Virus record (IMG/VR): IMGVR_UViG_3300021478_000003
Span: 1-62,244 of that record
DNA from: a virus
DNA length: 62,244 nucleotides
Reading direction: 5' to 3' (one strand)
Shown here: piece after piece, positions 40,668-57,028 of the stretch
Position numbering within the stretch: the stretch's first letter is position 1
How the letters are laid out: each line of letters opens with the position of its first letter
The notes under the pieces: generated by a model
Database searches by the model: none
The model's input: the letters and a program-made list of their open reading frames with translations, nothing else
Told to the model about the DNA's origin: nothing
Made by a program: the position numbers and the translations under genes

Positions 40668-40916
40668 ATGCACCCGACTGCCGCAACGCTTGCCTTGTGC
40701 GGGTTCAAGCCCTACCTCAATTACACTGACTGCCGGTATCGCATCAAGCGTGGGCAGAAGAATGGTGAACCCATGCTTACGTTCTCCAATCTACACGGCT
40801 GGCACACCACGCACGGCGCATCGCTGAAGGAATACTCGGAGATAGAGTGGGGAGTCATTGCACCGATCATGGGTGAGATATCCCAGAACGATCTTGACTG
40901 GCTGTTGAATCAATAG
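40668..40916 (+). CDS. paralogous small protein, subfamily A member 1
   Basis: 82 residues. MHPTAATLALCGFKPYL opens the protein with a helix ending in a Gly-Phe. Then YRIKRGQKNGEPMLTFSN and HGW match the subfamily A pattern (aromatic or Leu-Arg-Ile/Leu, RG, Met-Leu, aromatic, Trp). The stop overlaps dyad copy 5. Similar proteins follow at 41341, 41607, 41878 and 46321. Confidence 0.65.
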   Translation: MHPTAATLALCGFKPYLNYTDCRYRIKRGQKNGEPMLTFSNLHGWHTTHGASLKEYSEIEWGVIAPIMGEISQNDLDWLLNQ

Positions 40917-40943
40917 ACACTTGGTTGCTACCGACCACATGTC
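40916..40943. repeat. dispersed dyad copy 5
   Basis: GACACTTGGTTG, CTAC, CGACCACATGTC, starting at the stop codon of the upstream gene. The next ribosome-binding site and start (40967) follow 24 bases later. Confidence 0.8.
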
Positions 40944-40966
40944 TTTCACTTGTTAGGAGAAGAACC

Positions 40967-41344
40967 ATGTTCACATATGCAGACTTCACATCGCAGCGCT
41001 GCACGGCCGCTCAGTATATCGGGCAGTTCGTCGACGACAACGTGCGCCGCTGCGTCACCAAATACATCTCCATCAAGAAGCTGATGGAGACACCATCGTG
41101 CGACGACATCGATGAGCTGGTGTGGGTAGCGATTGCCACCTGCGTCACGCCATTCGTCGCCGCGCCTATTATCCAGTCCGGCTACCCGCATTGCGACGGC
41201 GAGCTGGTGGTGCAGATAGCCCAGTGTGCCGCGTCCCAGATGCGCAAGGCAGCGCTGCACTTCAGTGGCGACAGCGACGACGCCCGCCTCCAGATACAGG
41301 CGTTCAAGATCATGAAGGAATGCCTTGCTCGGGTGATGCGGTGA
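40967..41344 (+). CDS. hypothetical helical protein
   Basis: 125 residues from the ATG at 40967, preceded by TTGTTAGGAGAAG. Helical throughout, rich in Cys (six), with TAAQYIGQFVDDNVRRCV and AASQMRKAALHFSGDSDD. No recognised family. The gene lies between two members of the small paralogous family, but its sequence is unrelated to them. Confidence 0.55.
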   Translation: MFTYADFTSQRCTAAQYIGQFVDDNVRRCVTKYISIKKLMETPSCDDIDELVWVAIATCVTPFVAAPIIQSGYPHCDGELVVQIAQCAASQMRKAALHFSGDSDDARLQIQAFKIMKECLARVMR

Positions 41345-41604
41345 GCAGGTGGGAAGAGATTGTCATGATGTGCACGCTGCTAGGCATCAAGCCCTACCTG
41401 CACACCATGGCCACTTACGATAGGCTTCGTCTCAAGCGTGGGCTGCACGACTGCGAGAAAGTTCTCACGTGTATAGGTGGCATCTGGGGTACGGCCAGCA
41501 GCATGCCTCTTCACAATTACGTCCCCATCAGTTGGGGGGAGGCGTGCGTGACGGACCTGCTGCAGTTGGGTGAAGCCGACATTGAATACATGAGGGAGGG
41601 ATAG
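41341..41604 (+). CDS. paralogous small protein, subfamily A member 2
   Basis: 87 residues, GTG start overlapping the previous stop. SRWEEIVMMCTLLGIKPYL aligns with member 1 (ALCGFKPYL). Then RLRLKRGLHDCEKVLTCIGG and W follow the subfamily pattern. The C-terminus ends in an acidic helix (EADIEYMREG). Confidence 0.65.
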   Translation: MSRWEEIVMMCTLLGIKPYLHTMATYDRLRLKRGLHDCEKVLTCIGGIWGTASSMPLHNYVPISWGEACVTDLLQLGEADIEYMREG

Positions 41605-41606
41605 CC

Positions 41607-41876
41607 ATGATCCGCAGCGAAGAGATGTGGCTCACACTGCGGCTGATGGGCCTGCGCATCTACACGTCACAGGTCAGTTGCCCCACCGTTCAGAGCCTGC
41701 GTATCATGCGAGGCCAACGTGGGTACGAACGCATGCTGCGCTTTGAGGGTGACAAGTGGGTCGTGCGGCGTTCTATCGAGCTGAGTAATTACAAGGAGGT
41801 CGGGCGTCTCGCCATTACAAGAGAGCCGCTGATGATGCTCACCTATGAATTGCTTGACGTATTCAAGGAGGGATAG
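41607..41876 (+). CDS. paralogous small protein, subfamily A member 3
   Basis: 89 residues. MIRSEEMWLTLRLMGLRIY opens it, then LRIMRGQRGYERMLRFEG and DKW. The RG...ML motif is exact. It is 2 bases from the previous stop. This is one of three adjacent members that seem to have arisen by tandem duplication. Confidence 0.65.
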   Translation: MIRSEEMWLTLRLMGLRIYTSQVSCPTVQSLRIMRGQRGYERMLRFEGDKWVVRRSIELSNYKEVGRLAITREPLMMLTYELLDVFKEG

Positions 41877-41877
41877 C

Positions 41878-42150
41878 ATGCACCCTATCGCACTGATCCT
41901 TTCGTTGAAGGGATACAGGCTGTATCGGTTCGAGCCAGGTGTAGGTATGAATACCGGTATCGACAAGTTGTTGCGCATCAAGCAGCAGACACGGCCAGGT
42001 GAAGACATGCTGTCATACCATAATCTACAGTGGATGCGTGTAGATAAACTTTCGTTTGAGCTGGAGCACTACAGCGAGCTGCCGTGGGCCTCAATCGACC
42101 AGTCCATCCTTGATTCAATCACGGATGAAATGATAAACGCACTACCCTGA
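41878..42150 (+). CDS. paralogous small protein, subfamily A member 4
   Basis: 90 residues. MHPIALILSLKGYRLYRFEP has the start of member 1 (MHP) and the GY/GF turn. LLRIKQQTRPGEDMLSYHN and LQW follow. The end is acidic and helical (DEMINALP). The stop codon meets dyad copy 6. Confidence 0.65.
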   Translation: MHPIALILSLKGYRLYRFEPGVGMNTGIDKLLRIKQQTRPGEDMLSYHNLQWMRVDKLSFELEHYSELPWASIDQSILDSITDEMINALP

Positions 42151-42176
42151 CATCTGGTTGCGGGCAACCAAGTGTC
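42149..42176. repeat. dispersed dyad copy 6
   Basis: GACATCTGGTTG, CGGG, CAACCAAGTGTC, overlapping the stop codon of the gene ending at 42150 and followed by CAACTTGCTAGGAGAAC before 42198. Confidence 0.8.
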
Positions 42177-42197
42177 TCAACTTGCTAGGAGAACGTC

Positions 42198-42485
42198 ATG
42201 GAACTGAACACCATCAATATCATCAACAAGACCGGCGACGAGCCAGAGCCGAACATGATGCAAGATGTACTCGCCCATTGCCAGGGTCATCTGGTCGGCG
42301 GCTACAAGATCGACATCAATGTCAACCAACGCACGCCTGTCGACGCGCCGCCCCAAGATCGCCCGGGCTGGCTGCAGTTCGAGATCGTTGTGTACTTCAA
42401 CAAGCTGTCGCCTTTGCGCATCACTGCGATGCAGCGGCATCTTGGCGCATCCACTGAATTCCATCCTGATCGTGAGTACGCCTAA
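42198..42485 (+). CDS. hypothetical protein
   Basis: 95 residues; GCTAGGAG precedes the ATG. A beta-type pattern (INIINKTGDEPEP then YKIDINVNQRTPVDAP and WLQFEIVVYFNKLSPL) suggests an alpha/beta fold. No family recognised. The next gene starts inside it. Confidence 0.55.
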   Translation: MELNTINIINKTGDEPEPNMMQDVLAHCQGHLVGGYKIDINVNQRTPVDAPPQDRPGWLQFEIVVYFNKLSPLRITAMQRHLGASTEFHPDREYA

Positions 42486-42717
42486 CAAGAGCGATCAGCA
42501 AGAGATCGCGGACTATGTGAACGAGTATCTTGCGAACGACTCGCTCACTTACCAAGCCGATGCCCACGCGGAAGAGTGCCAACGCTGGGCTAAGGCGCTC
42601 GCCCCGCGCTGTACACCGCGTCCTGTCTTGAGGCCCAGTCGCCGGCCGCTGGTAATCAAGACCGTAGTTGCGGCGTGCGTGGTGGCCGTATTATGGGTGA
42701 CGCTGCATTTTTTGTGA
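42472..42717 (+). CDS. small protein with C-terminal membrane anchor
   Basis: 81 residues from a GTG at 42472 inside the previous gene. Charged first half (KSDQQEIADYVNEYLANDS), basic linker (RPVLRPSRRPL), then a hydrophobic end (VVAACVVAVLWVTLHFL). It is a tail-anchored layout. Its linker-to-helix DNA contains one CAAGACCGTAGTT copy. Confidence 0.55.
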   Translation: MSTPNKSDQQEIADYVNEYLANDSLTYQADAHAEECQRWAKALAPRCTPRPVLRPSRRPLVIKTVVAACVVAVLWVTLHFL

Positions 42718-42744
42718 TGATAGATTTGAACAAGGGAGGCAATC

Positions 42745-43389
42745 ATGCCGCAAACACGTGAGATACAAGTGTACGATTACGACGAACTATCGACCACGGC
42801 CAAGGCTCGTGCGCTCGACTGGTTCAGGGATCGCTATCTCGATGATGACTGGTCCGATGTCATGTTGGACGACGCCACCATGGTACTATCGCACCTCGGT
42901 CTTGAGCCGGTCAGCGGTCGCGGTAAGCTGGGCTTTCAGTTCGCGCTCGGCGAGGCGCTGGTGTTCGATGCTAACTGGGTGGCGCATCAAGTCACGATAC
43001 CCGGCTTAGTAGGGTATATACCTGAAGCCAGCAACAAGCGCGAGGACGATGTGGTGGACATCTCTGCGGTGTGCGTTGAGCTGTCGGCCATCGCGCTCAA
43101 GTTCCCAGAGGGTACAGGGCAGATACGGATCAGCGGGCGTAGCATCATGTCGAAACACATGACGTTTGAATTTGAAACCAACATCGTGGCAGGCGATACG
43201 CTGGAGCACGACGCGGCCGAGCAGCGCATGTCGGAGTTGTGGCAAGACGTGTGCATCTGGGTGCACAAGAAGCTGGAAAGGGAATACGAGTACGTGACGT
43301 CCGAGTCCGAGCTGGAGGGCGGTATCCGTCACCTTGGTATCGAGTGGCACAAGGATGGCAAGATGTTCGCCATACCACCACACGCTTGA
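42745..43389 (+). CDS. phage antitoxin-like / YDELS-family hypothetical protein
   Basis: 214 residues. The beginning (IQVYDYDELSTTAKARALDW) is typical of a phage protein group often labelled antitoxin-like, with a long alpha/beta remainder rich in acidic residues (DDDWSDVMLDDATMVL). I know the pattern but not its function. It sits just before the DUF3150/MoxR/VWA genes. Confidence 0.6.
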   Translation: MPQTREIQVYDYDELSTTAKARALDWFRDRYLDDDWSDVMLDDATMVLSHLGLEPVSGRGKLGFQFALGEALVFDANWVAHQVTIPGLVGYIPEASNKREDDVVDISAVCVELSAIALKFPEGTGQIRISGRSIMSKHMTFEFETNIVAGDTLEHDAAEQRMSELWQDVCIWVHKKLEREYEYVTSESELEGGIRHLGIEWHKDGKMFAIPPHA

Positions 43390-43459
43390 TCGATTCTTTA
43401 AACCGTTTTAAAGTAGTGACCGCTGCCACTCATTGCAGCTAACTCGATAGGAGAAAATC

Positions 43460-44485
43460 GTGAGCAATTACATCAATAGCAACCTGCTGTATCGTCTGTC
43501 CATCTCGACATGGACGGCACGCAAGAAAGACAAAGATCAGTCGGCCAAGGTGAACACCGAAGCCGGTGCCAGCGAAGGCGCAGCCAATGTCTACAAGCAA
43601 CTGCTGCCCGACTCCAAGGAACTGGACGACGTGCAGAAGTGCGCAACCTCCATCCGCACCTGGGTGTACCATAATACTTCGCCGTGGGATGATGGCGGCT
43701 GGCGTATCGGCCAGTGCTCACGTCACATGGACTTCATGCGTGAGGCTGGCGACAAGATGCGTGAGTACGATGAGCTGGTCGACAAGCTGGTCAACGTCTA
43801 CGCTCAGGCTGTGCAGAATGCCAAGTTCACGCTGGCCGACATGTACAATGAAGACGACTACCCCGGCGTCAACGAAGTACGTGCCAAATACGCGATCAAT
43901 GTCGACGTGAAGTCGCTGCCGAACGTGGAAGACTTCCGTGTGGTCGACGGTATCCCGCAAGAAGAGGTCGACCGCTTGCTCGCTTCGGCCAAGGCAGATG
44001 TCGATGAGCGCGTCAGCGCCGCCATGGAGTCGGCATACTCACGCCTGTTCGACGTGGTATCCAAGATGGCATCGACGTTGACTGCATACGGCGAGAAAGA
44101 TATCAAGAAGTTCAACGATACCTTAACCGGCAACATCTCGGCGCTGATCGCAGTGATGCCGGGGCTGAACATCACCAACGATCCGAAGTTGGCCGCGCTC
44201 GCCGATGAAGCTAAGCGCTTGCTCGACTACGACCTCGGCGATCTGCGCAAGGATGAAGGCGCACGCAAGTGCGCTATCGAAGACGCGACCAAGCTGGTCA
44301 AGAAGTTCGGTCGCGGACATGAGGTTGTCGAACAACCAGTTGTCCTCGCCACCACGTCGCAAGCCGTGGCGTCGCTGAACAAACTGTCGGCCGCGATGAA
44401 GCGCCATGGCGAGAGTGCGCCTAAGTCGCCGGTCTTGACTGACGACGATGCTGACCTGTTGTCGTCCATGTCGGGAGATGACTGA
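43460..44485 (+). CDS. DUF3150-like coiled protein, first gene of MoxR/VWA triad
   Basis: 341 residues from a GTG with TAGGAGA upstream. Almost entirely helical (EYDELVDKLVNVYAQAVQNA and VSAAMESAYSRLFDVVSKM). The last 50 residues are a Ser-rich linker with an acidic tail. Length, helical content and position just before a MoxR-like ATPase and a VWA/HExxH protein fit the DUF3150 type seen in phage and bacterial MoxR clusters; the family call is contextual. It may be a substrate-binding or adaptor subunit. Dyad copy 7 lies inside it. Confidence 0.6.
   Translation: MSNYINSNLLYRLSISTWTARKKDKDQSAKVNTEAGASEGAANVYKQLLPDSKELDDVQKCATSIRTWVYHNTSPWDDGGWRIGQCSRHMDFMREAGDKMREYDELVDKLVNVYAQAVQNAKFTLADMYNEDDYPGVNEVRAKYAINVDVKSLPNVEDFRVVDGIPQEEVDRLLASAKADVDERVSAAMESAYSRLFDVVSKMASTLTAYGEKDIKKFNDTLTGNISALIAVMPGLNITNDPKLAALADEAKRLLDYDLGDLRKDEGARKCAIEDATKLVKKFGRGHEVVEQPVVLATTSQAVASLNKLSAAMKRHGESAPKSPVLTDDDADLLSSMSGDD
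44316..44344. repeat. dispersed dyad copy 7 (inside a gene)
   Basis: GACATGAGGTTG, centre of five (TCGAA), CAACCAGTTGTC. It is within the DUF3150-like coding sequence and keeps the frame, so the coding constraint explains its weaker left arm. Confidence 0.6.
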
Positions 44486-44655
44486 TGGATGCCCCGCGTC
44501 CAGCACAGGGGCATCCGGGGGAAAGGTTCATCGCCCGCATCTGGTTTTTGGAGCTGTCGGTGGCGATAGCCCAGCTTCACCCGAACAAGTGCGGCGAGGC
44601 AGGGAAGGTCGCGCTGACGCAGAGTAGCCTGTTCATGCCGCGCTCTCGGCACTGA
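44485..44655 (+). CDS. small hypothetical protein
   Basis: 56 residues read by eye, ATG overlapping the previous stop (TGATG). Sequence starts MDAPRPAQGHPGERFIARIW and has a helical middle (FLELSVAIAQLHPNKCG). No family recognised. It is kept because of coupling and because it fills the gap before the MoxR-like gene. Confidence 0.5.
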   Translation: MDAPRPAQGHPGERFIARIWFLELSVAIAQLHPNKCGEAGKVALTQSSLFMPRSRH

Positions 44656-44663
44656 CTTAGTTT

Positions 44664-44676
44664 CAAGACCGTAGTT
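44664..44676 (+). repeat. CAAGACCGTAGTT copy (intergenic)
   Basis: One of four copies of the 13-mer; the others are at 15-27, 42657-42669 and 49901-49913. This copy is intergenic, between the small gene ending at 44655 and the leader of the MoxR-like gene. Confidence 0.5.
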
Positions 44677-44715
44677 CAAACTTTCGCACCACCACTCGAT
44701 AGGAGATTTTCAATC

Positions 44716-45846
44716 ATGGCAACACGTCTCAACGATTTACCACAGGTTCTGATCCGCAACTACTTCGCTGGCATCTCGACCTTCATCCACGGCAAGCCTG
44801 CGCTGGGTAAGACCGATACCATCATGGCGTTCGGAGAGAAGATGAAGGCCAAGCTGGGCGAGCGCGGCGAGGACTTCCGGGTGTGGCTGTTCTACGCACC
44901 TACCATGTCGCCGATGGACATCCAAGCGTCGGCCCCGAACTACGAGACCGGCAAGCTGGACCTGTACAACAACGTGGCTCTGCCGAACGCTTACGATGAG
45001 ACCGATGAGGTCAAGTTCAAGGGCGTGATCTTTTTCGGCGAGATGACCAACGCCGATCCGTCGACCATCAAGCTGTTGCAGAAGTACGTGAACCGTGAAG
45101 ACATGAACGGCAAGCTGAAGCTGCCTGACGGCGTGCAGGTAATCGTGGACGGCAACCGGATCGAAGACAAGTCCGGCGTGCAGCAGCAGGGCCGTGCGTT
45201 CATGTCGCGCTTCGAGCATATCGAGGTCTACAGCGAAGCGCAGGACAACATCAACTTCGCGGCGCGCAACGAGTGGCACCCTAACGTCCAGACGTATTTC
45301 AAGGACCATCCGGGCGACATCGACAACTACGACGAAGTGTTCCAGACTTCCGGCTCGGTCAACAAGGTCTCCGGTAAAGCCAACAGCGGCTTGATGGCCG
45401 AGGAAGGCCGCAAGGGTATCTGGGCATCCATGCGTAGCTGGAAGCGCATCAGCGACAAGGAAAAGGTGGCTGACCAACTGAAGTCGCCGATGACCCTGGG
45501 CGAGATGACCGGCAATCTGGGCAGCGGCGTCGGTGCATCGTACATGGCGCATCGCGACTTGATCGGCCGGCTTGCGTCGTTCGATGAAGTCATGGCCAAC
45601 GCGGAACATATCGACCTGCCTACCAAGATCGATGAACAGTACATCTTATCGCTGCTGGTGGCCATGCGTTGCAAGCCGGAGCAGATGGATACCGTGAAGG
45701 CGTTCGGTGTTCGCATGCCGATGGAAATGCAGGCAGTCATGCTGCGCAATCTGGCATGCCGTAAGGGCTTCAACCTGCACCACTCGGCAGCCTACAAGGA
45801 CTGGATATCCAATCCGGAAATCGTGCAGCTTATCAACGGCCGCTAA
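44716..45846 (+). CDS. MoxR/CobS-like AAA+ ATPase
   Basis: 376 residues. Walker A GKPALGKT at 26-33. Walker B position is VIFFGEMTN at 105-113: the usual Asp before Glu is Gly, so the acidic residue is only Glu110. Sensor-1-like QVIVDGNR at 142-149 and an arginine-finger-like FMSRFEH at 163-169 follow. The C-terminal half is helical. It resembles MoxR/CobS ATPases, which pair with VWA proteins as chaperone-like machines. The leader has ACTCGATAGGAGA like that of the DUF3150-like gene. It ends before dyad copy 8. Confidence 0.75.
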   Translation: MATRLNDLPQVLIRNYFAGISTFIHGKPALGKTDTIMAFGEKMKAKLGERGEDFRVWLFYAPTMSPMDIQASAPNYETGKLDLYNNVALPNAYDETDEVKFKGVIFFGEMTNADPSTIKLLQKYVNREDMNGKLKLPDGVQVIVDGNRIEDKSGVQQQGRAFMSRFEHIEVYSEAQDNINFAARNEWHPNVQTYFKDHPGDIDNYDEVFQTSGSVNKVSGKANSGLMAEEGRKGIWASMRSWKRISDKEKVADQLKSPMTLGEMTGNLGSGVGASYMAHRDLIGRLASFDEVMANAEHIDLPTKIDEQYILSLLVAMRCKPEQMDTVKAFGVRMPMEMQAVMLRNLACRKGFNLHHSAAYKDWISNPEIVQLINGR

Positions 45847-45855
45847 TCAAACTCG

Positions 45856-45883
45856 GACATCTGGTTGCACCCGACCAGTTGTC
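45856..45883. repeat. dispersed dyad copy 8
   Basis: GACATCTGGTTG, CACC, CGACCAGTTGTC, 10 bases after the stop of the MoxR-like gene; the next start is at 45899. Confidence 0.8.
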
Positions 45884-45898
45884 CAACTGGAGAACACC

Positions 45899-46318
45899 AT
45901 GCAAGTAACGAATTGGTTTATCGCGGACCCCGATCATAAGGGGTGGTATCAAGTCCGTAACGATATAGTTAAGGCGCAGCTATACCGTTACTGGGCCGGA
46001 GATGGTACCTGGAGTAACGCGCTAACCGAAAAAGATTTCAAGTCGCTGTCGCCGTCCACTGAAATCATCACGTGCTATCTCAACTACAGAGTCGAGTGGC
46101 GTGGGGTACCCGATGCGCCGCGCCACACGTATGCCTTTGATGTAGACATCACGGGCTCGTTTGAGATTGAAGCGCGTGACATTGACGAAGCGAAAGCAAT
46201 GATCCAAGGATGGCTCACGAACGTTGAAGGTTTCAATACCGGCAAAGGTTTTGAAGTAAGCCTGTACGGCGATACTGATATGGCAGTCCTTGAATCGGTC
46301 GACGGTATCAGGCAGTAG
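45899..46318 (+). CDS. hypothetical alpha/beta protein between MoxR and VWA genes
   Basis: 139 residues, starting MQVTNWFIADPDHKGWY, rich in aromatic residues, with FEIEARDIDEAKAMIQGWL resembling a phage 'GxxEI...A.D..EA' unit. CTGGAG precedes the ATG. Not recognised. Its place inside the triad may be accidental or may mark a fourth component. Confidence 0.55.
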   Translation: MQVTNWFIADPDHKGWYQVRNDIVKAQLYRYWAGDGTWSNALTEKDFKSLSPSTEIITCYLNYRVEWRGVPDAPRHTYAFDVDITGSFEIEARDIDEAKAMIQGWLTNVEGFNTGKGFEVSLYGDTDMAVLESVDGIRQ

Positions 46319-46320
46319 CC

Positions 46321-46623
46321 ATGCACTCGAACGCCGCGTTCCTCGCGCTCAACGGGTGCATACTTGCTGTGCCCAAGGGAGCGCCGAGGAACTACAGGAT
46401 ATTTTCTCGGCGTGAGACGCGCAACCCGATGATGCTGAGATACGAGGATAACAGCCGCTGGGTTGCGTCACCACTATCTATCAAACAGGGAGAATATAAT
46501 CGCCTCATTAACGGTGAGGTGTACGTCACGCAAGATTGGGATTACATCCCCGACGATGTGATGGATCGCATGAGCGATAAAGCTATTGAAGAATTTCTCG
46601 GCATACCCCGAGGCTGGATATAA
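46321..46623 (+). CDS. paralogous small protein, subfamily A member 5
   Basis: 100 residues. MHSNAAFLALNGCILAVPKG matches the MHP...LALCG opening of member 1. YRIFSRRETRNPMMLRYEDN and RW align with the RG...ML...W core. It lies 2 bases after the previous stop and directly before the VWA gene. Confidence 0.6.
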   Translation: MHSNAAFLALNGCILAVPKGAPRNYRIFSRRETRNPMMLRYEDNSRWVASPLSIKQGEYNRLINGEVYVTQDWDYIPDDVMDRMSDKAIEEFLGIPRGWI

Positions 46624-46640
46624 CTTGCTAGGAGAAAGAG

Positions 46641-47786
46641 ATGAGTAGGAATCAAAACGTAACGACCGCAGCCGCAGTGCGCATGACCATGATGCACCCA
46701 TTCTGGACGGAGCTGTTCTACTCCATGAATATCGTGGAGGTGCATCCCGACGACCCGCTGGCCAAGCGCTTCAAGACACAGGGGACGGATGGCCGCACGA
46801 TCTGGGTGAACGTCGAGTTCTTCAAGAGCATCCCACTGGAGCAGCAGGTCTCCGAGCTGGTGCACGAGATATGCCACAAGGCGTTCCTGCACACCACGCG
46901 GCGCGGCATGCGCAACCCGAGCCTGTGGAATACTGCGTGCGACTACGTGGTCAACGCCATGATGGCCCAGAACAACTTCGTCATGGACGCTACCTGGCTG
47001 CTGGACATGCAGTATCTCGGCTGGTCTGCTGAAAAGGTCTACTCGCATCTGGAGAAGCAGCAGCGCGAGGGGCAAGGTAGCCCCGGCACATCCGACAGCC
47101 GGATGGACATCGAAGAGTTCAAAGGCTCGCCTGAAGAGAAAGAAGTGGCCGAGACGCAGATCAAAATGCTGGTCGACAAAGCCCTCGCCACGGCCAAGCA
47201 CTTCGGCAACGTGCCTGTTGGCATGGAGCAGGCCACGCTCGACATCTACGAGGCTCCACGTGAACCATGGTACAACGCGTTGCACAGATATATGCAGTCG
47301 CTGACCGTGGCCAATTACAACTGGGCCAAGCTGAATAAGCGCACGCTGCGCACGCACGGCCTGTTTGCCCCGCTCAATACCAGCGAGGCGCTGGGTGTGG
47401 TGGCGCTGTTCATCGACACGTCCGGCTCATGCTTCCAGCGGGCGCAGCAGGCCAACTTCGCCGGCCACCTGAACGCGATCCTCGCCGAGTGCAAGCCGCT
47501 GCGGGTGCACGTGTATTACTTCGACACGGCCGTCTACACTGGGCCGGTCGTGGAGGCGGGTGAGATTGACATTGCGCTCACACCACGGGGGGCAGGCGGC
47601 ACGAACTTCATCCCGATCTTTCAGGCGCTGGAGGACGACGATGTGCTGCCGGAGGTGTGCATCATCCTCACCGATCTGGAGGGTAGCTTCCCATCGCAGG
47701 GGCCGGACTATCCTGTGGTGTGGGCGTCGATCTATGAAGGTGAGAACTATGTGGCACCGTTCGGCGAAACCATTTACGTGGAGTAG
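46641..47786 (+). CDS. VWA protein with N-terminal HExxH metallopeptidase-like domain (DUF2201-like)
   Basis: 381 residues. N-terminal part: VHEICHKAF with HEICH at 75-79, and WNTACDYVVNAMM at 97-108, the latter giving Asp101 and Asn105 of the DUF2201 N-terminal pattern. C-terminal part: MIDAS DTSGS at 259-263, a Thr in GGTNF near 321, and LTDLEG with Asp345. All MIDAS residues appear present. Such proteins work with MoxR-type ATPases, here encoded 0.8 kb upstream. ACTTGCTAGGAGAA precedes the ATG. Confidence 0.75.
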   Translation: MSRNQNVTTAAAVRMTMMHPFWTELFYSMNIVEVHPDDPLAKRFKTQGTDGRTIWVNVEFFKSIPLEQQVSELVHEICHKAFLHTTRRGMRNPSLWNTACDYVVNAMMAQNNFVMDATWLLDMQYLGWSAEKVYSHLEKQQREGQGSPGTSDSRMDIEEFKGSPEEKEVAETQIKMLVDKALATAKHFGNVPVGMEQATLDIYEAPREPWYNALHRYMQSLTVANYNWAKLNKRTLRTHGLFAPLNTSEALGVVALFIDTSGSCFQRAQQANFAGHLNAILAECKPLRVHVYYFDTAVYTGPVVEAGEIDIALTPRGAGGTNFIPIFQALEDDDVLPEVCIILTDLEGSFPSQGPDYPVVWASIYEGENYVAPFGETIYVE

Positions 47787-47788: not shown

Positions 47789-48097
47789 ATGGCCACGATC
47801 AAACGCAGCAAGCGTGAAGCGCTGGCCAGGAAGCGCAGGGTCAAGGCTGACCAGCAGATCACCACCATGACGTTGAACGGCTGGCAGCCGGTACGCACCA
47901 GCGCTGAACCCGGGTGTGCGGATGAGGTAGGCATCTACCACCGAGAGCATGGCATTATCGCCCGGACTCGGGGCGGTAGCGTGATCCGGTATCGGCACCG
48001 TAACCCGCCGCGCCACCATGTCACGATCTGGGCCGAGCTGAATGTCTATCGCATCTTCTGGCTGTTCGGCAGGCTGGAAAAGGAGAAGCTACTATGA
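47789..48097 (+). CDS. small basic protein with internal family-like segment
   Basis: 102 residues. A Lys/Arg-rich start (KRSKREALARKRRVKADQ) precedes QITTMTLNGWQPVRTS, which resembles the helix-GW-P opening of the small paralogous family. The rest is Arg/His rich with a hydrophobic C-terminus. It may be a diverged family member with a basic extension. The stop overlaps the next start. Confidence 0.5.
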   Translation: MATIKRSKREALARKRRVKADQQITTMTLNGWQPVRTSAEPGCADEVGIYHREHGIIARTRGGSVIRYRHRNPPRHHVTIWAELNVYRIFWLFGRLEKEKLL

Positions 48098-48324
48098 CCC
48101 GCGAAGACTGCATCACCCTGCTGAAGCTGCGCGGCTGGGAGCCGCACACTGGCTTGACCATCGTGTCGCAGATACACGGCAGGATGATCTTCGTCGGCTA
48201 CTCCGGCATGAACTGCCCGACTATCGAGCGGCGATCTGACAAGACGCGCAGCATCGGCTATGACTGGGACGACTTAACCATCAGCATGCTCAACGATTTT
48301 GTTGAAGCTACTGGCAACCTTTAG
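48094..48324 (+). CDS. paralogous small protein, subfamily B member 1
   Basis: 76 residues. MTREDCITLLKLRGWEPHTG shows the family opening (T-R-E/D, L-x-L, GW). The middle is IHGRMIFVGYSG and the end is acidic. Overlaps the previous stop (ATGA). Subfamily B lacks the RG...ML core of subfamily A. Confidence 0.65.
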   Translation: MTREDCITLLKLRGWEPHTGLTIVSQIHGRMIFVGYSGMNCPTIERRSDKTRSIGYDWDDLTISMLNDFVEATGNL

Positions 48325-48644: not shown

Positions 48645-48853
48645 CTCGCGGCGACTGGTATGCCAAGAAATACGGCGGTGGCTGGCGCACCGTGCGCAAG
48701 GTGCTGGGTATGAAGTGCGGCCGCTTCGGCTGCTTCCATGTCACGGTGCCAGGCGATCAGCACTTCGATACGCGGCAAGTAACGGAATGGCCGAAGACGT
48801 TGTGCATCTGCGCCAAGTGCGCCAACGAAGAACTCAAGGAGCCGCCACCATGA
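48641..48853 (+). CDS. small cysteine-rich protein
   Basis: 70 residues starting MTRGDWYAKKYGGGW. KCGRFGCF (C-x4-C) and CICAKCAN (C-x-C-x2-C) look like a zinc site. Coupled by ATGA at both ends. Function unknown. Confidence 0.55.
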   Translation: MTRGDWYAKKYGGGWRTVRKVLGMKCGRFGCFHVTVPGDQHFDTRQVTEWPKTLCICAKCANEELKEPPP

Positions 48854-49401
48854 CACGCGATGAAATGCAGGCCCACCTGATCGTGCACGGGTGGCGGCCT
48901 GCGGGATACCTGAGCATCATGCATGATCTGCACACACGCCTGTATATCAACGAGCAAGGCGTTGCCGACATTTACCCGACCAGCGTGGATACAAGCTGGA
49001 AGAGATGGAGCGATGTGCCAGAAGATCACTTGATTGCATTCTGCACGGCGCTTGAATATGGGATGCACCTCTTGTTAGTTGACCCGCAAAAGATGCTGTC
49101 GCTTCGCATCGCTGCGATGGCGAAAACATCACGGCTGGCATTGGAGTCTATCCGGTATGAAATGCTAGACGCGCATTGGGCTTCTAAAATAGGTGTGCAC
49201 GACGAACTGAGGTCAGCTCCGCTGGCGAAGTTCTACATGGATGAATGCACCGACTTCAAGGTGTACCCGGACCCACGCCCTGTCAGACCACTTCGCCATG
49301 CAGGAAAGATAGACCACACGAATAAGTTCGGGACGCCTGAAACCTCGATAGCCAAGAAGGTTTCTGGCTTGTGGGGCAAGTTGGCGGCGAGGTTGAAATG
49401 A
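48850..49401 (+). CDS. paralogous small protein, subfamily B member 2 (extended)
   Basis: 183 residues. MTRDEMQAHLIVHGWRPAGY is the family opening. It carries a longer C-terminal part than the others (helical, basic, ending KKVSGLWGKLAARLK), so it may be a fusion with a second domain. Overlaps both neighbours by ATGA. Confidence 0.65.
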   Translation: MTRDEMQAHLIVHGWRPAGYLSIMHDLHTRLYINEQGVADIYPTSVDTSWKRWSDVPEDHLIAFCTALEYGMHLLLVDPQKMLSLRIAAMAKTSRLALESIRYEMLDAHWASKIGVHDELRSAPLAKFYMDECTDFKVYPDPRPVRPLRHAGKIDHTNKFGTPETSIAKKVSGLWGKLAARLK

Positions 49402-49661
49402 ACATCGACCAGCTTGTCACTACGCTGATGTTGATGGGGTACAGGGTCGGGGAAGACATGGATATCGGCGGCAATGTCGTAGGCTCGCTGCGCAGCATCG
49501 TGCACATCCCTACCGGTGATACGTACAGGGAAATGGGAGTTACAACCCGCTGGTATTTAAGCGTCGTTAAATCAGCCCGCTATAAGGAAGGAGGGTGGGA
49601 AGCTTTTAGTACATCCGAACTTGAGACTTTCTATAACTACGTTAAGATCGGACCGCCGTGA
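49398..49661 (+). CDS. paralogous small protein, subfamily B member 3
   Basis: 87 residues. MNIDQLVTTLMLMGYRVGED opens it, followed by IVHIPTGDTYREMG and a late RW. The IxHxPTGxxYR motif is shared with the next gene. ATGA overlap upstream and TGATG downstream indicate coupling. Confidence 0.65.
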   Translation: MNIDQLVTTLMLMGYRVGEDMDIGGNVVGSLRSIVHIPTGDTYREMGVTTRWYLSVVKSARYKEGGWEAFSTSELETFYNYVKIGPP

Positions 49662-49915
49662 TGAACCGTGACGAACTTATCATCACGCTCAAGCTAATGG
49701 GCTACCGCAGAGGGCCGGATATTAATGGATCAAGTTCGTTTTTCACCTGCATTACGCATGCACCTAGTGGCACCATATATAGGCTGTCTTTCTTAAAAGA
49801 TGACACGTGGTACAAGAGTCAACGGCCACCCCAAGGTTTGGACGATAAGCTGGAAGAGATGGATGCGCGGCACCTAGAAAGCTTCTACGCATTTATAACG
49901 CAAGACCGTAGTTGA
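49661..49915 (+). CDS. paralogous small protein, subfamily B member 4
   Basis: 84 residues. MNRDELIITLKLMGYRRGPD and CITHAPSGTIYRLSF align with the previous gene, the clearest adjacent pair of duplicates in the genome. The C-terminus is acidic (DKLEEMDARHLESFYAF). The start overlaps the previous stop. Confidence 0.65.
   Translation: MNRDELIITLKLMGYRRGPDINGSSSFFTCITHAPSGTIYRLSFLKDDTWYKSQRPPQGLDDKLEEMDARHLESFYAFITQDRS
49901..49913 (+). repeat. CAAGACCGTAGTT copy (gene end)
   Basis: This copy spans the stop codon of the small gene ending at 49915. It is in a different frame from the copies at 15 and 42657, where the same bases encode Lys-Thr-Val-Val. Confidence 0.5.
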
Positions 49916-49940: not shown

Positions 49941-49965
49941 GAAGTTCCATCACAGGAGATTAAAA

Positions 49966-50307: not shown

Positions 50308-50310
50308 ACC

Positions 50311-50664: not shown

Positions 50665-51001
50665 CGACGGCTTTCATGTTGGCCCTTTATTCATAGTCAC
50701 CACGCGTAAGCCCAAGGTGGTGCGACCGTCAGGTGGCAAGGAAGTGTGGGCCAAATACAAGCGGGCCACTCCACCGTGGGCTGATAGAAACGCGATACGC
50801 AAGGCGTGGGAACTATCAGCACTGGCCACGGCGATGAGTGGCATACAGCACAGCGTCGACCACATCGTGCCGCTGGTGAACCCGATAGTGTGTGGCCTGC
50901 ACGTGGAGTGGAACCTTCGGGTGATCCCACTGGAGGACAACGTAAAGAAAGGAAATGCGACATGGCCGGATATGCCGATGCAACAGCTAGAGCTGTTATA
51001 G
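50645..51001 (+). CDS. HNH endonuclease
   Basis: 118 residues. VDHIVPLVNP (Asp72-His73) with CGLHVEWNLRVIP (Asn90) and NVKKGN (Asn104) match the HNH motif (D-H-I-x-P-L, N, N). GGAGGG precedes the ATG. It would nick or cut DNA, either as a homing-type enzyme or in packaging or recombination. The terminase is far away, so the first is more likely. Confidence 0.75.
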   Translation: MRQSLFDDGFHVGPLFIVTTRKPKVVRPSGGKEVWAKYKRATPPWADRNAIRKAWELSALATAMSGIQHSVDHIVPLVNPIVCGLHVEWNLRVIPLEDNVKKGNATWPDMPMQQLELL

Positions 51002-51615
51002 AAGAGCGCGAGCGCACGGCGCTTATCATCCTGCGCGGCGGCGTGCTGATCCATGACTGGATCAATCGCAACAGGGCGTTCCGTGCGGCCCACATGCGCG
51101 AGTCACTTGGCTTTGCTGCTATCGAAAAAATTGCGATGACCGCCGATACATACGACACCACTGACGAATTCATTTGCCAGGTAGGTGTGTTCAATCAGGA
51201 GATGCAACATGCCGCTGCCAAACTACGGAGCGAAGCCGACCACGGCTTCATGCTCGCTATCCAGCGAGCCTACCCCGGAATTGTCGTCTTCAAGCCAGTG
51301 GCCGAGTGGAAGAATGGAGTCGAGATTAATGGGTTCTTCTATCATGGAGGGGACTGCGGGGATGCCCGACGCCCAGTTGCGCGCACATCTATTGATACAC
51401 GGACAACCGCTCTTGTTGAAGTGGAGGATTATCGACTCACTGCACTCCGAATGCGTGAACAGCAAGATCGGGTGCGGACTGTACTCCGCAAGTTTGAGAG
51501 ACAGATCGTTGACGAAGCCGCAGCGCGTGCATCTCGCACAATTACTAAGAGACCACAATCGGAAGATTACCTTTATGACCCGCGAATGGGAAAGGATAGT
51601 CTCGGATTCTGGTAA
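50962..51615 (+). CDS. hypothetical protein overlapping two genes
   Basis: 217 residues. The first 130 residues (RERTALIILRGGVLIHDWIN and ADHGFMLAIQRAYPGIVVFK) look like normal protein. After about residue 135 the frame is Arg-rich and overlaps another frame that begins at 51362. Either this is a real overlap or the C-terminal part is an artefact of a frameshift or stop loss. Start has AGGAAA and overlaps the HNH gene. Confidence 0.45.
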   Translation: MAGYADATARAVIEERERTALIILRGGVLIHDWINRNRAFRAAHMRESLGFAAIEKIAMTADTYDTTDEFICQVGVFNQEMQHAAAKLRSEADHGFMLAIQRAYPGIVVFKPVAEWKNGVEINGFFYHGGDCGDARRPVARTSIDTRTTALVEVEDYRLTALRMREQQDRVRTVLRKFERQIVDEAAARASRTITKRPQSEDYLYDPRMGKDSLGFW

Positions 51616-51718
51616 TAGCTGCGAGTGGTTTAACTGGGGCTCGCGCTTGAGCAATGGCCACGAGTATCATTTCACTATGGTAGTGTACGGCGAAGACACT
51701 GTAATCGTTGAGGGGTAG
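51362..51718 (+). CDS. paralogous small protein, possible subfamily B member 5
   Basis: 118 residues in another frame, with GGAGGGG upstream of the ATG. MPDAQLRAHLLIHGQPLLLK resembles MTRDEMQAHLIVHGWRPAG of member 2. The last part (EWFNWGSRLSNGHEYHFT) is beta-like. It shares 254 bases with the previous frame, so one of the two ends is uncertain. Confidence 0.45.
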   Translation: MPDAQLRAHLLIHGQPLLLKWRIIDSLHSECVNSKIGCGLYSASLRDRSLTKPQRVHLAQLLRDHNRKITFMTREWERIVSDSGNSCEWFNWGSRLSNGHEYHFTMVVYGEDTVIVEG

Positions 51719-51721
51719 ATA

Positions 51722-51880
51722 ATGCCAGCACTTGAACCCTACGTCTCCGTCCGCTTCTGGGGCATCGTCTGCCAGAAGCCCACGAAGAAACCGAAGTATC
51801 AGTTCCCAATGCCCGACAAATTATTCCGGGGCTGGGTCAATCCAAAGACAGGCATCACGCCGCATCACTTAGGACTTTGA
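51722..51880 (+). CDS. small basic hypothetical protein
   Basis: 52 residues read by eye: starts MPALEPYVSVRFWGIVCQKP, continues with many Lys and Pro, and ends ITPHHLGL. The ATG is 3 bases after the previous stop. No family recognised. Confidence 0.5.
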   Translation: MPALEPYVSVRFWGIVCQKPTKKPKYQFPMPDKLFRGWVNPKTGITPHHLGL

Positions 51881-51882
51881 AA

Positions 51883-52089
51883 ATGAAACTCTATTGCATA
51901 CGCCGAGCCGAGATTGATGTGGGCTACGATGAAACAGCAGCGATAGTGGTGGCTGCCATGTCACCTAAAGCGGCATGGAGGTTTTTCCCGACCTATAACG
52001 ACCAGTTTCCGCAGACGATCACGTTGATCGGTACAGCTCACAAGTCGCTTAAGGCTGGGATCGTCCTGACTGACTTCCGTGCTGGCTAA
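51883..52089 (+). CDS. conserved small phage protein
   Basis: 68 residues from the ATG at 51883. MKLYCIRRAEIDVGYDETAA and KAAWRFFPTYNDQFP give an alpha/beta pattern familiar from small phage proteins that lie next to polymerase genes. Function unknown. Confidence 0.55.
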   Translation: MKLYCIRRAEIDVGYDETAAIVVAAMSPKAAWRFFPTYNDQFPQTITLIGTAHKSLKAGIVLTDFRAG

Positions 52090-52092
52090 TCC

Positions 52093-54066: not shown

Positions 54067-54226
54067 CATCGAAGCGCAACAGTTGGCCAGCGAAGGCGAG
54101 CGCTTGTACAGTGAAGTGGTGCAGGATGTGCGCGCCGGTCGCACCGTGCTCACCCAAGAACAAATGCAGGTGTTGAATAACCTGCGCAACCAGATTGCCG
54201 AGTGTAAGAAGCTCGGCATTGTTTGA
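54053..54226 (+). CDS. small helical protein
   Basis: 57 residues, GGAG upstream, overlapping the polymerase 3' end. Fully helical (NIEAQQLASEGERLYSEVVQ and QVLNNLRNQIAECKKLGIV). Could be a polymerase-associated subunit by position, but nothing shows it directly. Confidence 0.55.
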   Translation: MLRANIEAQQLASEGERLYSEVVQDVRAGRTVLTQEQMQVLNNLRNQIAECKKLGIV

Positions 54227-54262
54227 CCTAGTGTAGTTCCTTTTTAATCTCAGGAGATTCAA

Positions 54263-54778
54263 ATGAGTGACGATCTGCAATCCCAAGTCGACGCCGATGC
54301 AGCCAAGGTGGCCGGCGACGAAGCAACCCTCGCTACCGACCAGTCCCAACTGGCGCAGGACCAGGCAGCACTGGCACAGCAGCAAGCAGCGGCCGCCCAG
54401 GCAGCTCAAGCACAGCAGCAAGCGGCAGTCGCTCCCGTGGTTGACGCTGCTGTGGTTGACGCTGCTGTGGCAGCTCCAGCCATTCCGATGGTCGACACAT
54501 CGGCAGCGCCTACCATCAGCGCTGAAGTTCAAGGCGCAGCCGTGGTAAATCCAGTGCAGACCATGGGCGACTTGATCGCTGCAGCAGCGGCCGCATCAAA
54601 CCCAGTGACGGCAGTTGAAGGCGCTGTGGCTGCGGCCATCGCACCGACCGTCATGTCCGAAGCCGCGCTGGAAGTGCACAAGGCGCTGGACGACATCGTG
54701 ACGTATGCCGAGCGTTTCGGTGGTCTCATCCACCAAGACTTGGTGCGCCTGGTCGCAGCCGTCAAAGCAAAGCTGTAA
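54263..54778 (+). CDS. Ala/Gln-rich low-complexity helical protein
   Basis: 171 residues. The first 60 are nearly pure Ala/Gln/Asp heptads (DQSQLAQDQAALAQQQAAAA), followed by a Val/Pro/Ala spacer and a C-terminal helix (EVHKALDDIVTYAERF). AGGAG lies before the ATG. TTGACC at 54223-54228 could be a -35 box, but no good -10 follows. Function unknown; probably forms a coiled coil. Confidence 0.6.
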   Translation: MSDDLQSQVDADAAKVAGDEATLATDQSQLAQDQAALAQQQAAAAQAAQAQQQAAVAPVVDAAVVDAAVAAPAIPMVDTSAAPTISAEVQGAAVVNPVQTMGDLIAAAAAASNPVTAVEGAVAAAIAPTVMSEAALEVHKALDDIVTYAERFGGLIHQDLVRLVAAVKAKL

Positions 54779-54780
54779 CC

Positions 54781-54993
54781 ATGCAGGTATCCATCCGGTC
54801 GTCTGCGGAGTTATCTGCGCAACTCAGGTCACTTCGCAAGGCGAAGGGATGGAGCCAGGCAGAACTCGGACGCAGGCTAGGTGTCACGCAAGCGCGGATC
54901 GCATATATCGAGGGCGACCCAAGCCGCAAGAACGTGACGTGTGTAATTCAGATGCTGCAATTATTGGACGCACGCATACTGATTTGTTTTTAA
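54781..54993 (+). CDS. XRE/HipB-like helix-turn-helix protein
   Basis: 70 residues. LRSLRKAKGWSQAELGRRLG and VTQARIAYIEG form a clear Cro/CI-type HTH (residues about 15-50), with a helical end. It is small enough to act as a DNA-binding regulator on its own. It is one of two HTH genes that could recognise the dispersed dyads or the 18-bp element. No kinase partner (HipA) follows. Confidence 0.8.
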   Translation: MQVSIRSSAELSAQLRSLRKAKGWSQAELGRRLGVTQARIAYIEGDPSRKNVTCVIQMLQLLDARILICF

Positions 54994-55004
54994 GGGGCCT
55001 CAAC

Positions 55005-55196
55005 ATGCCATGGTATCTAGTGCACACCAAGCACCCACAACTCAAGTGGAAGATCAACAAGTTTGACAAGGTGACGAAGCAAGCAGAGCTTCAGGGTGGC
55101 ACCAGCGCCCCGTTCACTCGCGACATCTCGGATGAGTCGCTGAAGAAACTCAACTACAAAGTTGTGCAACTTCCCGATGAGACTGTTTCTAATTAG
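55005..55196 (+). CDS. small hypothetical protein
   Basis: 63 residues, starting MPWYLVHTKHPQLKWKINKF, basic and Lys-rich, then SDESLKKLNYKVVQLP. No family recognised. It overlaps the next gene by 20 bases. Confidence 0.5.
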   Translation: MPWYLVHTKHPQLKWKINKFDKVTKQAELQGGTSAPFTRDISDESLKKLNYKVVQLPDETVSN

Positions 55197-55380
55197 CCCG
55201 ACCAAACCAGACTGGCCTTATGAGATTCTGGAATACGACCAGAAGCACCATAGGGCCAAGCTGCGCAGCAAAGAGATGGTGATGATTGACCCGAACTTCT
55301 ATCCCAAGGAGTTGCAGCGTGACGGGTTCAAGCTCACCCAAGAAGTACCGGAGTGCTTCAAGGAGCCGTACCATGTTTAA
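55177..55380 (+). CDS. small hypothetical protein
   Basis: 67 residues. MRLFLISPTKPDWPYEILEY and the later FYPKELQRDGFKLTQE. No clear ribosome-binding site before the ATG at 55177; overlapping translation from the upstream gene is likely. No family recognised. Confidence 0.5.
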   Translation: MRLFLISPTKPDWPYEILEYDQKHHRAKLRSKEMVMIDPNFYPKELQRDGFKLTQEVPECFKEPYHV

Positions 55381-55672
55381 AAAATATGCAATAGGCTGGT
55401 GGGCCATGGGTGCGACAGCGCTCTGCCACTATAGCTACTGGACAAGCGGTCCGAACTGGGTGGACTTGTCCATGATGTTCGTCAACCTGCTGTCGCTGTT
55501 TATAGTGTGGCTGATTACGACACCGGCACCCTACGTTATGTTCGTGATCCGCACGGGCATGCCGGACCGCAAGCATCACTATCAATACATGTGGATGGCC
55601 AAGGTGCATGCGTGGATTCTCTTGCGCTCCCACTATCACTTCCACATCTACAAGGATGCCGATCATGCCTAG
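55373..55672 (+). CDS. multi-span membrane protein
   Basis: 99 residues, GGAG upstream. Hydrophobic segments at about 5-22 (YAIGWWAMGATALCHYSYW) and 35-62 (MMFVNLLSLFIVWLI then PYVMFVI), with a His-rich end (HHYQYMWMAKVHAW). Membrane protein of unknown role. It overlaps both neighbours. Confidence 0.6.
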   Translation: MFKKYAIGWWAMGATALCHYSYWTSGPNWVDLSMMFVNLLSLFIVWLITTPAPYVMFVIRTGMPDRKHHYQYMWMAKVHAWILLRSHYHFHIYKDADHA

Positions 55673-55958
55673 CTCTCCTAACTATAAGCGCGACTACAAG
55701 CAGGAAAAGAAAACGTCCGACGCTCGCGGCGAGAAGCCCAAGCGTGCCGAGCGCGACGCCGCCCGCCGCCTCATGGTCAAGAAGGGCATGGTGACGAAGG
55801 GTGACGGCAAGGATGTGGACCACAAGACGCCGCTCGGTAAAGGCGGCGCGCCGCTGGCCCCAAAGAACCTGCGGGTGGAAACTGCTCACGACAACCGCAG
55901 CTTTCCGCGCAAGCCGGATGGCTCCATGGTCAAGAACGTGCCCAAGAAAAAATCATGA
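55665..55958 (+). CDS. HNH-like basic protein
   Basis: 97 residues. Lys/Arg-rich first half, then GKDVDHKTPLGKGGA, NLRVETAHDNRSFPRKPDG, a D-H-K / N / N layout like small HNH proteins from phages. The motif is less canonical than the one at 50645. Possibly a packaging- or recombination-linked nuclease. Confidence 0.55.
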   Translation: MPSSPNYKRDYKQEKKTSDARGEKPKRAERDAARRLMVKKGMVTKGDGKDVDHKTPLGKGGAPLAPKNLRVETAHDNRSFPRKPDGSMVKNVPKKKS

Positions 55959-56176
55959 TTCCTTGTGCGCAACGTAAGGAGGAAAGCGAGCGAAATATGC
56001 ATATGCATGTTAGCCCTGGCCTTCCTAAGCACCGTGAACATCACCCTAATGTGAAAGATCAAAATGGCCCGACCACTCCCGTGGAGTCACAGCGCGCTCG
56101 ACAGCTTCACGACTTGCCCTCGGCAGTACGAAGAGGTCAAGGTGCTGCGAAACTTCCAAGACCTGAAAAACCCTAA
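55955..56176 (+). CDS. doubtful ORF overlapping the Cas4-like gene
   Basis: 73 residues, start overlapping the previous stop; AAGGAGG is at 55976-55982, but the Met that it could serve (55998) is 15 bases away. It overlaps the Cas4-like gene by 113 bases in another frame and its composition (Pro, His, Arg) looks like a shadow. Listed as doubtful. Confidence 0.2.
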   Translation: MIPCAQRKEESERNMHMHVSPGLPKHREHHPNVKDQNGPTTPVESQRARQLHDLPSAVRRGQGAAKLPRPEKP

Positions 56177-56759
56177 CTCGCTTTGGGGTGACGCCTTCCA
56201 CAAGGCAGCAGAACTATTCATCCGCAACACCATTGACGGCGTGCTGGCGTCGATGCCAGGCGACATGACGAAGTACATACCGTACTTGATGGAGTTCGTG
56301 GATCGCCCGGGCATCACGCAGGTGGAGCGCAAGTACGGCCTGAACATCAAGCTGCAGTCGGTGGATTTCTTCGACAAGGACATCTGGCTGCGCGCTGTGC
56401 TGGACGTGGAGACGCTGCACGGCACAACGGCTTGGGTGGACGACCACAAGACCGGTCTGAAGCGCAAGAAGGATATGCAGCAGCTCATCATATTCGCGCT
56501 ACAAACATTCTATCACCACCCGCAGATCAACACGGTCCATGTGTCGTATCGGTGGGTCAAGCTGGGCGCGATGGATGTCGAGACGTTCTATCGGCACCAG
56601 ATACCTGAGATGTGGGAGACGCTTGTGCCACGGCTGAAGAACTACCAACATGCGTTCCATGTCGGTGTGTTCAACCCAAACCCCTCCGGCCTGTGCATCG
56701 CGCACTGCCCTGTTACCACGTGCGAGTTCTGGGGGGTGGGGAAAGGGAAGCGGCGATGA
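56064..56759 (+). CDS. Cas4/RecB-like PD-(D/E)XK nuclease
   Basis: 231 residues. The RecB/Cas4 pattern is present: SALDSFTTCPRQY with Cys, WGDAFHKAAE (His), LRAVLDV with Asp, WVDDHKTG (Asp, x, Lys), MQQL with Gln, and C-terminal CIAHCPVTTCEF (three Cys that with the first Cys could bind Fe-S). It would act in recombination or DNA end processing together with the nearby helicase and exonuclease. The start at 56064 follows an in-frame stop, and the ribosome-binding site is weak. Confidence 0.75.
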   Translation: MARPLPWSHSALDSFTTCPRQYEEVKVLRNFQDLKNPNSLWGDAFHKAAELFIRNTIDGVLASMPGDMTKYIPYLMEFVDRPGITQVERKYGLNIKLQSVDFFDKDIWLRAVLDVETLHGTTAWVDDHKTGLKRKKDMQQLIIFALQTFYHHPQINTVHVSYRWVKLGAMDVETFYRHQIPEMWETLVPRLKNYQHAFHVGVFNPNPSGLCIAHCPVTTCEFWGVGKGKRR

Positions 56760-57028
56760 GCATGACACGCGAGGAATGCGAGATACACTTGCGATTGCTA
56801 GGGTGGTATCCAGCGTGCATGACGTCAGCAAATAGCTGCTACCGAAGCTGCTACGGATGGGCGCATAAAGGCCGTGTGGGTCGCGGCATAGATCATCTCG
56901 GGAATCTATTCTATATGGCGATGGGTGCGGCTGAACCTGCTGACGCCACCATAGCGGCGTGCCATATCGACAGGGTTCAGTTCGCCACCATTTATGTTGA
57001 CATCGTTCACCTGGCAGAAGACCTATGA
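56756..57028 (+). CDS. paralogous small protein, subfamily B member 6
   Basis: 90 residues from the ATG overlapping the previous stop. MTREECEIHLRLLGWYPAC is the family opening (T-R-E-E, L-x-L-x-GW). Then Cys-rich SCYRSCYGWAHKG and FYMAMG. It is the most distant member, located among recombination genes, so the family is not limited to one cluster. Confidence 0.6.
   Translation: MSMTREECEIHLRLLGWYPACMTSANSCYRSCYGWAHKGRVGRGIDHLGNLFYMAMGAAEPADATIAACHIDRVQFATIYVDIVHLAEDL

Follow-up and report, generated by a model that had tools for sequence, protein, structure and literature searches.

The window analyzed here is a virus record from IMG/VR (IMGVR_UViG_3300021478_000003), 62,244 bases in length. 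The minus strand carries its structural genes. Replication and nuclease genes are in a plus-strand block which begins at about 38.9 kb. Within this block we have found eleven small genes which are almost certainly paralogues of a single protein superfamily, with two subfamilies, A and B. The first-pass annotation had named eleven genes and proposed the repeated duplication of one family. This proposal is confirmed: Ten of the named genes belong to it, together with a gene at 47789, which had been suspected to contain a diverged copy.

All the genes described in the window are on the plus strand. Subfamily A comprises 40668..40916 (82 amino acids), 41341..41604 (87, with a GTG start), 41607..41876 (89), 41878..42150 (90) and 46321..46623 (100), the last between an ATPase gene and a gene with DUF2201 and VWA-like domains. 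Subfamily B comprises 47789..48097 (102 amino acids, with a basic N-terminal extension), 48094..48324 (76, with an ATGA overlap with 47789), 48850..49401 (a B domain of about 78 amino acids followed by a C-terminal extension of about 105), 49398..49661 (87), 49661..49915 (84) and 56756..57028 (90, flanked by RecB-like and VRR-NUC-like genes, each joined to it by an ATGA overlap). The named open reading frames (ORFs) are all present, and coding usage gives the top score to the named frame in the eleven cases, with 56756 tied with a reverse frame and 51362 weak.

The shared opening motif, L-x-x-x-G-W/Y/F, is less general than had been proposed. Its strict form is present in seven of the eleven named genes (40668, 41878, 48094, 48850, 49398, 49661 and 56756) and missing in four: 41607, 46321 and 51362 have LxxxG followed by a non-aromatic residue, and 41341 has CTLLGI. 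This motif is found near the N-terminus in 1.3% of 2,002 control small ORFs. The TRE/D start attributed to subfamily B is found in 48094, 48850 and 56756 (49661 has NRD), not in 49398 or 51362. A looser anchored N-terminal motif (xxAxLxLxGWxP) is present in 36 of the 39 sequences listed, versus 7% of the small ORFs from the same phages.

Alignment scores between members are far above those of shuffled small proteins. The four clustered A genes pair at z scores of 8–13, with one of the six pairs not significant (40668 has 10–13 and 41607 has 8–13 to A genes). In subfamily B, 49398 and 49661 pair at a z score of 18. The scores for 48094, 48850, 56756 and 49661 are mostly 3–8 and come from the N-terminus, with 48094 reaching 7–9. 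In searches of 14,260 ORFs, the set used for all these rankings, phmmer with 40668 gives 41878 (1.8e-4), 41341 (4.6e-4) and 41607 (0.039) as the next matches, and 49398 and 49661 recover each other at 3e-7. A non-circular test is provided by hidden Markov models (HMMs) built only from sequences of other phages (7 A, 19 B). They recover 46321 at E 1.5e-12, 40668 at 4.6e-8, 41878 at 1.4e-6 and 41607 at 0.17 (the fourth match) in subfamily A; in subfamily B, 48850 at 1.3e-6, 47789 at 4.5e-5, 49398 at 0.006, 56756 at 0.024, 48094 at 0.045 and 49661 at 0.58. These ten genes rank ahead of every ORF from outside the window. The remaining member, 41341, is tied in by its paralogues (phmmer 6.8e-5 and 7e-4 to 40668 and 41607). 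Some members also score well against genes of other phages: 46321 is clearly an A gene (z 23 to L207_3186), 47789 is clearly a B gene, with a z score of 10.6 to L207_13594, and 56756 has one of 12 to L199_13635, its placement being also based on the junction sequences described below.

The membership of the remaining named gene, 51362..51718, is unproven. It has an AHLLIHG motif and an ambiguous coding signal, its E value is 1.2 and its best z score is 4.5. It overlaps another open frame, 50962–51615, for about 250 nucleotides (nt). The codon signal in this region (50962–51718) favours the 50962 frame up to about 51320 and the 51362 frame afterwards, which is possibly due to a frameshift or to a wrong start for 51362.

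The two subfamilies form one superfamily, as judged from their profiles, with a predicted scaffold of a helix, four or five beta strands and a helix. The A profile (12 sequences) and the B profile (25 sequences) align end to end with hhalign, over 71 columns (probability 86, E 4.6e-6). The score is 31.5; 200 column shuffles give a mean of 7.5 and a maximum of 11.8, so none of them reaches the observed value. The alignment covers both ends, the helix AxLxLxGWxP and a C-terminal W-x-x-I/L-x-D-x-x-L segment. AlphaFold2 models of one member of each subfamily are similar in the order of their elements, which speaks against unrelated folds. In 49661 there is a helix at residues 3–12, strands at 15–22, 27–33, 38–43 and 49–53, and a helix at 69–81 (predicted local distance difference test, pLDDT, 81.1; predicted template modelling score, pTM, 0.71). 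In 41878 there is a helix at 3–10, strands at 14–18, 32–35, 44–48, 51–55 and 65–68, and helices at 75–79 and 83–88 (pLDDT 82.8, pTM 0.72). Both models predate the larger alignment of 38 sequences. An alignment of the A genes of the window alone, with 46321 included (A6), misaligned the C-termini and was kept out of the modelling.

We found the superfamily only in one clade of uncultured phages of about 62 kb. The window has no near relative among 50,697 phages. Rhizobium phage RHph_TM3_14A and Pseudomonas phages KPP25 and Rollin have DNA polymerases which are about 30% identical to that of the window. From phages gathered with the DNA polymerase and with distant VWA profiles the family had seemed unique to the window, a view overturned when a terminase query recovered the clade, which consists of IMG/VR phages of 61–64 kb whose polymerases, when matched, are 56–61% identical to that of the window. 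We read the early regions of G041, G045, G046, G049 and G050 and, in record G053, locus L207. Among the five records which carry the family, G053 is a 37.5-kb fragment and the other four are 61–64 kb in size. Start codons outside the window were picked by the motif.

There are 38 members in five phages, 12 A and 26 B, 27 of them in the four related phages. A genes number five in the window, three in G046, three in G053 and one in G041; B genes number six, five, six (including two fused into a single ORF) and seven, respectively, and two in G050. The fused gene, L207:6669-7205, is a 178 amino acid frame with two B domains, the first of which is found at E 6e-5 by a profile built without it. Whole-record profile searches recover the members, among them this first domain and two other left-out genes (13480 and 12812 of L199), and miss the left-out B gene L200 1282. 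L194_12273 of G046 was considered as a further member and left out as unsupported, with a z score of 3.3 at best. No members were found in G045, G049, G051, G001, G002 and the other 31 records searched with the profiles, some of which are fragments, so the number of copies per genome ranges from 0 to 11. Some orthologous groups are common to diverged phages (L202_13916/L199_13635/L207_6669, with z scores of 14–19, and L207_14010/L200_2252), and tandem pairs are also found (L207_3186/3464 and L194_10631/10887).

Members occupy defined slots between conserved genes, as mapped through these neighbours in five phages with the family and four without it. The slot upstream of the 42745 gene has four A genes in the window. 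The slot between a 341 amino acid protein and the ATPase has two members in G053, one in G046 and one in G041, and the slot between the ATPase and the VWA gene has one in the window, one in G053 and two in G046. Downstream of the VWA gene, the slot which ends at the 48333 homologue has two members in the window, four domains in G053, five members in G046, four in G041 and two in G050. Between the 48333 and 49921 homologues there are three in the window, and before RecB there is one in G041. The slot between RecB and VRR-NUC has one member in the window, two in G053, two in G041 and none in G050 and G046. The VWA gene divides the slots: A members are upstream in 12 of 12 cases, B members downstream in 26 of 26.

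The RecB/VRR-NUC junction shows how members are inserted, in most cases through start/stop overlaps of ATGA or GTGA. In G050 the two core genes overlap by ATGA, with nothing between them. The window has ATGA-member-ATGA, and G053 has ATGA-member-ATGA-member-ATGA; in G041 two members are joined through GTGA and ATGA overlaps. G049 and G045 have an unrelated small hydrophobic protein instead. In the A array, direct reading shows that the final codons of one gene (for example, AAGGAGGGATAG) serve as the ribosome-binding sequence of the next. The operon which holds these cassettes is tightly packed and apparently translationally coupled. From the slot anatomy and the start/stop overlaps, it follows that the family moves or duplicates as single-gene cassettes.

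Divergence is not uniform along the proteins. In fourteen compared pairs, identity is 33–82% in the first 17 residues versus 8–37% in the middle, which is rich in insertions and deletions, and column entropy climbs after the N-terminal helix. The proportion of synonymous differences is 0.56–0.90, near or at saturation in every pair, and the set contains no near-identical phage. Since the helix residues are kept despite saturated synonymous sites, the N-terminal helix is under purifying selection. Recent gene conversion is ruled out as the reason for its conservation: Codons differ at most shared residues, and they match at roughly a quarter to a half of the identical helix residues. Conservation is highest in columns of L, G, W and Y, and no invariant polar residue points to catalysis. 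Net charge has a mean of about -2 (range -11 to +7), with a mean isoelectric point of about 6. Acidic anti-restriction proteins which mimic DNA do not fit as a general model, as the net charge is not strongly negative.

Our best explanation, to which we give slightly less than an even chance, is that this single superfamily supplies varied binders of host targets for takeover or counter-defence. The mechanism we propose is tentative. The proteins would be non-catalytic binders, as suggested by the nature of the conserved columns. The conserved N- and C-terminal helices may be a scaffold or a common docking surface, and the hypervariable sheet and loops would contact different host targets. Each phage would then have a particular collection of proteins for host takeover or counter-defence, and copy number would follow host range. 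The two-domain B fusion might fit such a modular binder. The first-pass annotation had suggested host-interaction or anti-defence proteins: Accessory, copy-variable and hypervariable genes in a replication block do fit this role. Homology to a known anti-defence protein was not found in Pfam, PHROG, PADLOC and PDB searches. Diversifying selection on the variable middle is plausible.

Several points weigh against this explanation. For some hosts at least, the family must be dispensable, as no copies are found in its close relatives G049 and G045. Its members have no known target, homologue or phenotype. Purifying selection on the N-terminal helix is the opposite of diversification, and relaxed constraint on the middle could equally produce the same picture. 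As synonymous sites are saturated, the ratio of nonsynonymous to synonymous rates is no guide and diversifying selection is unproven. The likeness of the predicted A and B folds is based on element order and on the profile alignment, not on a superposition of the models.

The genes might also have accumulated in a mostly neutral way, with short cassettes which duplicate easily at junctions and persist because they are small, retaining just the folding core. The highly variable copy number, with none in close relatives, and the freedom of the middle to vary in length agree with this. Nevertheless, we consider it unlikely: All 38 members have open frames, the N-terminal helix has stayed conserved although synonymous divergence is saturated, and orthologues such as the L202_13916 group are kept across diverged phages, which is not expected for neutral genes in compact genomes.

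Another suggestion is that the proteins are the adaptors or clients of the ATPase and DUF2201/VWA pair, with the constant helix docking on this chaperone-like machine and the variable sheet capturing host proteins for remodelling. This would account for the stronger constraint on the helix and for the neighbourhood. The segregation of A and B by the VWA gene, with several A genes flanking the ATPase, is in agreement, and a VWA gene is found in every phage tested which has either the A/B family or a second, Rhizobium-type family (the window, G041, G046, G050, G053, G026, G036 and RHph_TM3_14A). MoxR-VWA pairs have been described as peptide-binding remodelling machines (PMC7159879). The ternary conflict systems described there also have an ATPase and VWA pair which adjoins variable components, but they are bacterial and have a dedicated third component; here we find a phage DUF2201 pair, present without the small proteins in close relatives. 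Members are missing from G049, G045, G001 and many more distant phages, although these have the VWA gene or the ATPase/VWA pair. The neighbourhood may reflect only a common insertion region, and the co-occurrence counts are biased, as it was the VWA gene or the terminase that led to most of the phages. This role is rather improbable.

The Rhizobium-type family, which we call AMLLG, is an unannotated expansion in Rhizobium phages RHph_TM3_14A, TM27A, TM27B and TM29 and in the IMG/VR contigs G026 and G036. There are 8–16 matches per phage in RHph_TM3_14A (locus L004), G026 (L135 and L166) and G036 (L165), mostly of 65–100 amino acids and in the replication region. Like A and B it is a genome-specific expansion. 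Its proteins start with TxEExxxxAMLLGxxY and match the B profile over 16 N-terminal columns (score 27.7, null maximum 11.1), but the remainder, DAxTLEPLSxxE, aligns with neither A nor B. The C-terminal DAxTLEP motif is absent from both subfamilies, and the AMLLG profile has no match at E ≤ 0.01 in G041, G046, G050 and G053. The likeness covers the first helix alone and may have arisen by convergence. In one gene of this family, L004:21768-22004, the opening motif is located at the C-terminus instead. A bolder form of the adaptor scheme, which we regard as a long shot, would be a combinatorial repertoire: The constant helix would dock all members on one machine (for example, the ATPase/VWA pair), and the sheet would select host proteins for remodelling or inactivation, with AMLLG as a second such repertoire that docks through the same helix.

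The proteins might instead be regulators of phage or host nucleic acids, with a fold which binds RNA or DNA as in double-stranded RNA-binding domains (dsRBD) or the HicA toxin. Both have an alpha-beta-beta-beta-alpha fold, and the order of elements is similar here, with a first helix which ends in G-W/Y, then an antiparallel sheet and a helix at the C-terminus. The best PDB match of the B model is in fact the double-stranded RNA-binding motif of ADAR2, but it is insignificant (E 0.66, template modelling score, TM, 0.29). The HicA Pfam HMM matches none of ten window members (E ≤ 1) or 20 B members (E ≤ 0.5). Given that neither fold has a sequence or structural match in A or B, and that the mean isoelectric point is about 6, we find this role quite doubtful. 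Finally, a coincidental N-terminal helix motif in unrelated small proteins has practically no chance and is refuted for the ten named genes and 47789: Several B genes do match pairwise over the first 18 residues or so only, but the shared C-terminal motif, the full-length A–B profile alignment, the recovery by HMMs from other phages and the same syntenic slots contradict it.

Sequence searches of Pfam, PHROG, PADLOC and PDB with single members and profiles gave nothing significant; PADLOC covers defence systems and may omit anti-defence proteins. Searches of the 50,697 phages by tblastn with 49661, 48094 and 41607 gave nothing credible. Foldseek gave no E below 1e-3 for both models against PDB or for the B model against BFVD, where the best match was A0A8K1BEL2 (TM 0.52, E 0.059). 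This family is not described in the papers found by our literature searches. Lineage-specific expansions of small genes are already known in phages; a family with a constant helix, a variable sheet and A and B segregated in different slots is a new form of them. The host-takeover module of SPO1 has many small genes in one block, mostly unrelated to each other. It resembles our case as a block of many small genes of unknown fold, accessory between relatives, but the A/B family repeatedly duplicates one scaffold, and its takeover role is a proposed one.

Most counter-defence and takeover proteins of phages are tiny orphans, difficult to find by homology. A constant helix, fixed slots and a variable body offer a systematic way to collect them, as every gene found at these junctions becomes a candidate. 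Should the members bind different host targets, a single scaffold would account for many functions. If they have a common docking partner, phages would have a new means of redirecting a single machine towards many substrates.

The genes which border the slots have labels of different strength. The ATPase (44716..45846) matches PHROG 1297, labelled as ATPase (4.8e-39), and has no Pfam match; MoxR-like is our own reading. The gene which divides A from B slots (46641..47786) has DUF2201 metallopeptidase (PF13203, 3.5e-28) and VWA-like (PF09967, 1e-18) domains in Pfam, so its PHROG 1314 label of HNH endonuclease is probably wrong. The RecB-like label rests on PF12705. The VRR-NUC-like gene is named from homology by position and from the RHph annotation, not from a Pfam match.

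Other repeated elements are also present in these genomes. An intergenic hairpin of 28 nt, GACA-NN-TGGTTG-variable loop-CAACCA-NN-TGTC, is found in the window at 36269, 37053, 38702, 40916, 42149 and 45856: six copies versus a mean of 0.9 in shuffled sequences (maximum 3). Further copies are found in L207 (12, 2138 and 4920), L194 (4674 and 10446), L199, L196, L202 and L205. The outer GACA/TGTC is kept in the clade, and each phage has its own inner stem (for example, AACGGAG..CTCCGTTT, with nine copies in L202). Many copies closely precede a ribosome-binding leader. The hairpin corresponds to no Rfam family; it looks like a phage-specific regulatory element and could co-evolve with a recogniser. 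An Rfam match to snoZ256 at 43536 was discarded, being far below the gathering score and inside a coding gene.

A translation leader, AACTTGYTAGGAGA(A), precedes selected genes and is conserved across diverged phages of the clade. It is found in the window at 42179, 46622, 40947 and 43441, and also at L199:5472 and 11624, L196:6831 and 13978, and L194:6738. A second small family (MPKYRVLIEELVQYxVxVEA...) is found in or near the ATPase–VWA slot (L202:12094-12488, L196:13786-13986, L205 14117-14317 in reverse, and L194:6520-6708) and is duplicated in G050. In a more distant relative, two adjacent duplicates ending in TxEEAMIWVETTxALxR (L006:794-1033 and L006:1134-1469) are found beside the ATPase and VWA genes, a small-gene duplication different from that of the A/B family.

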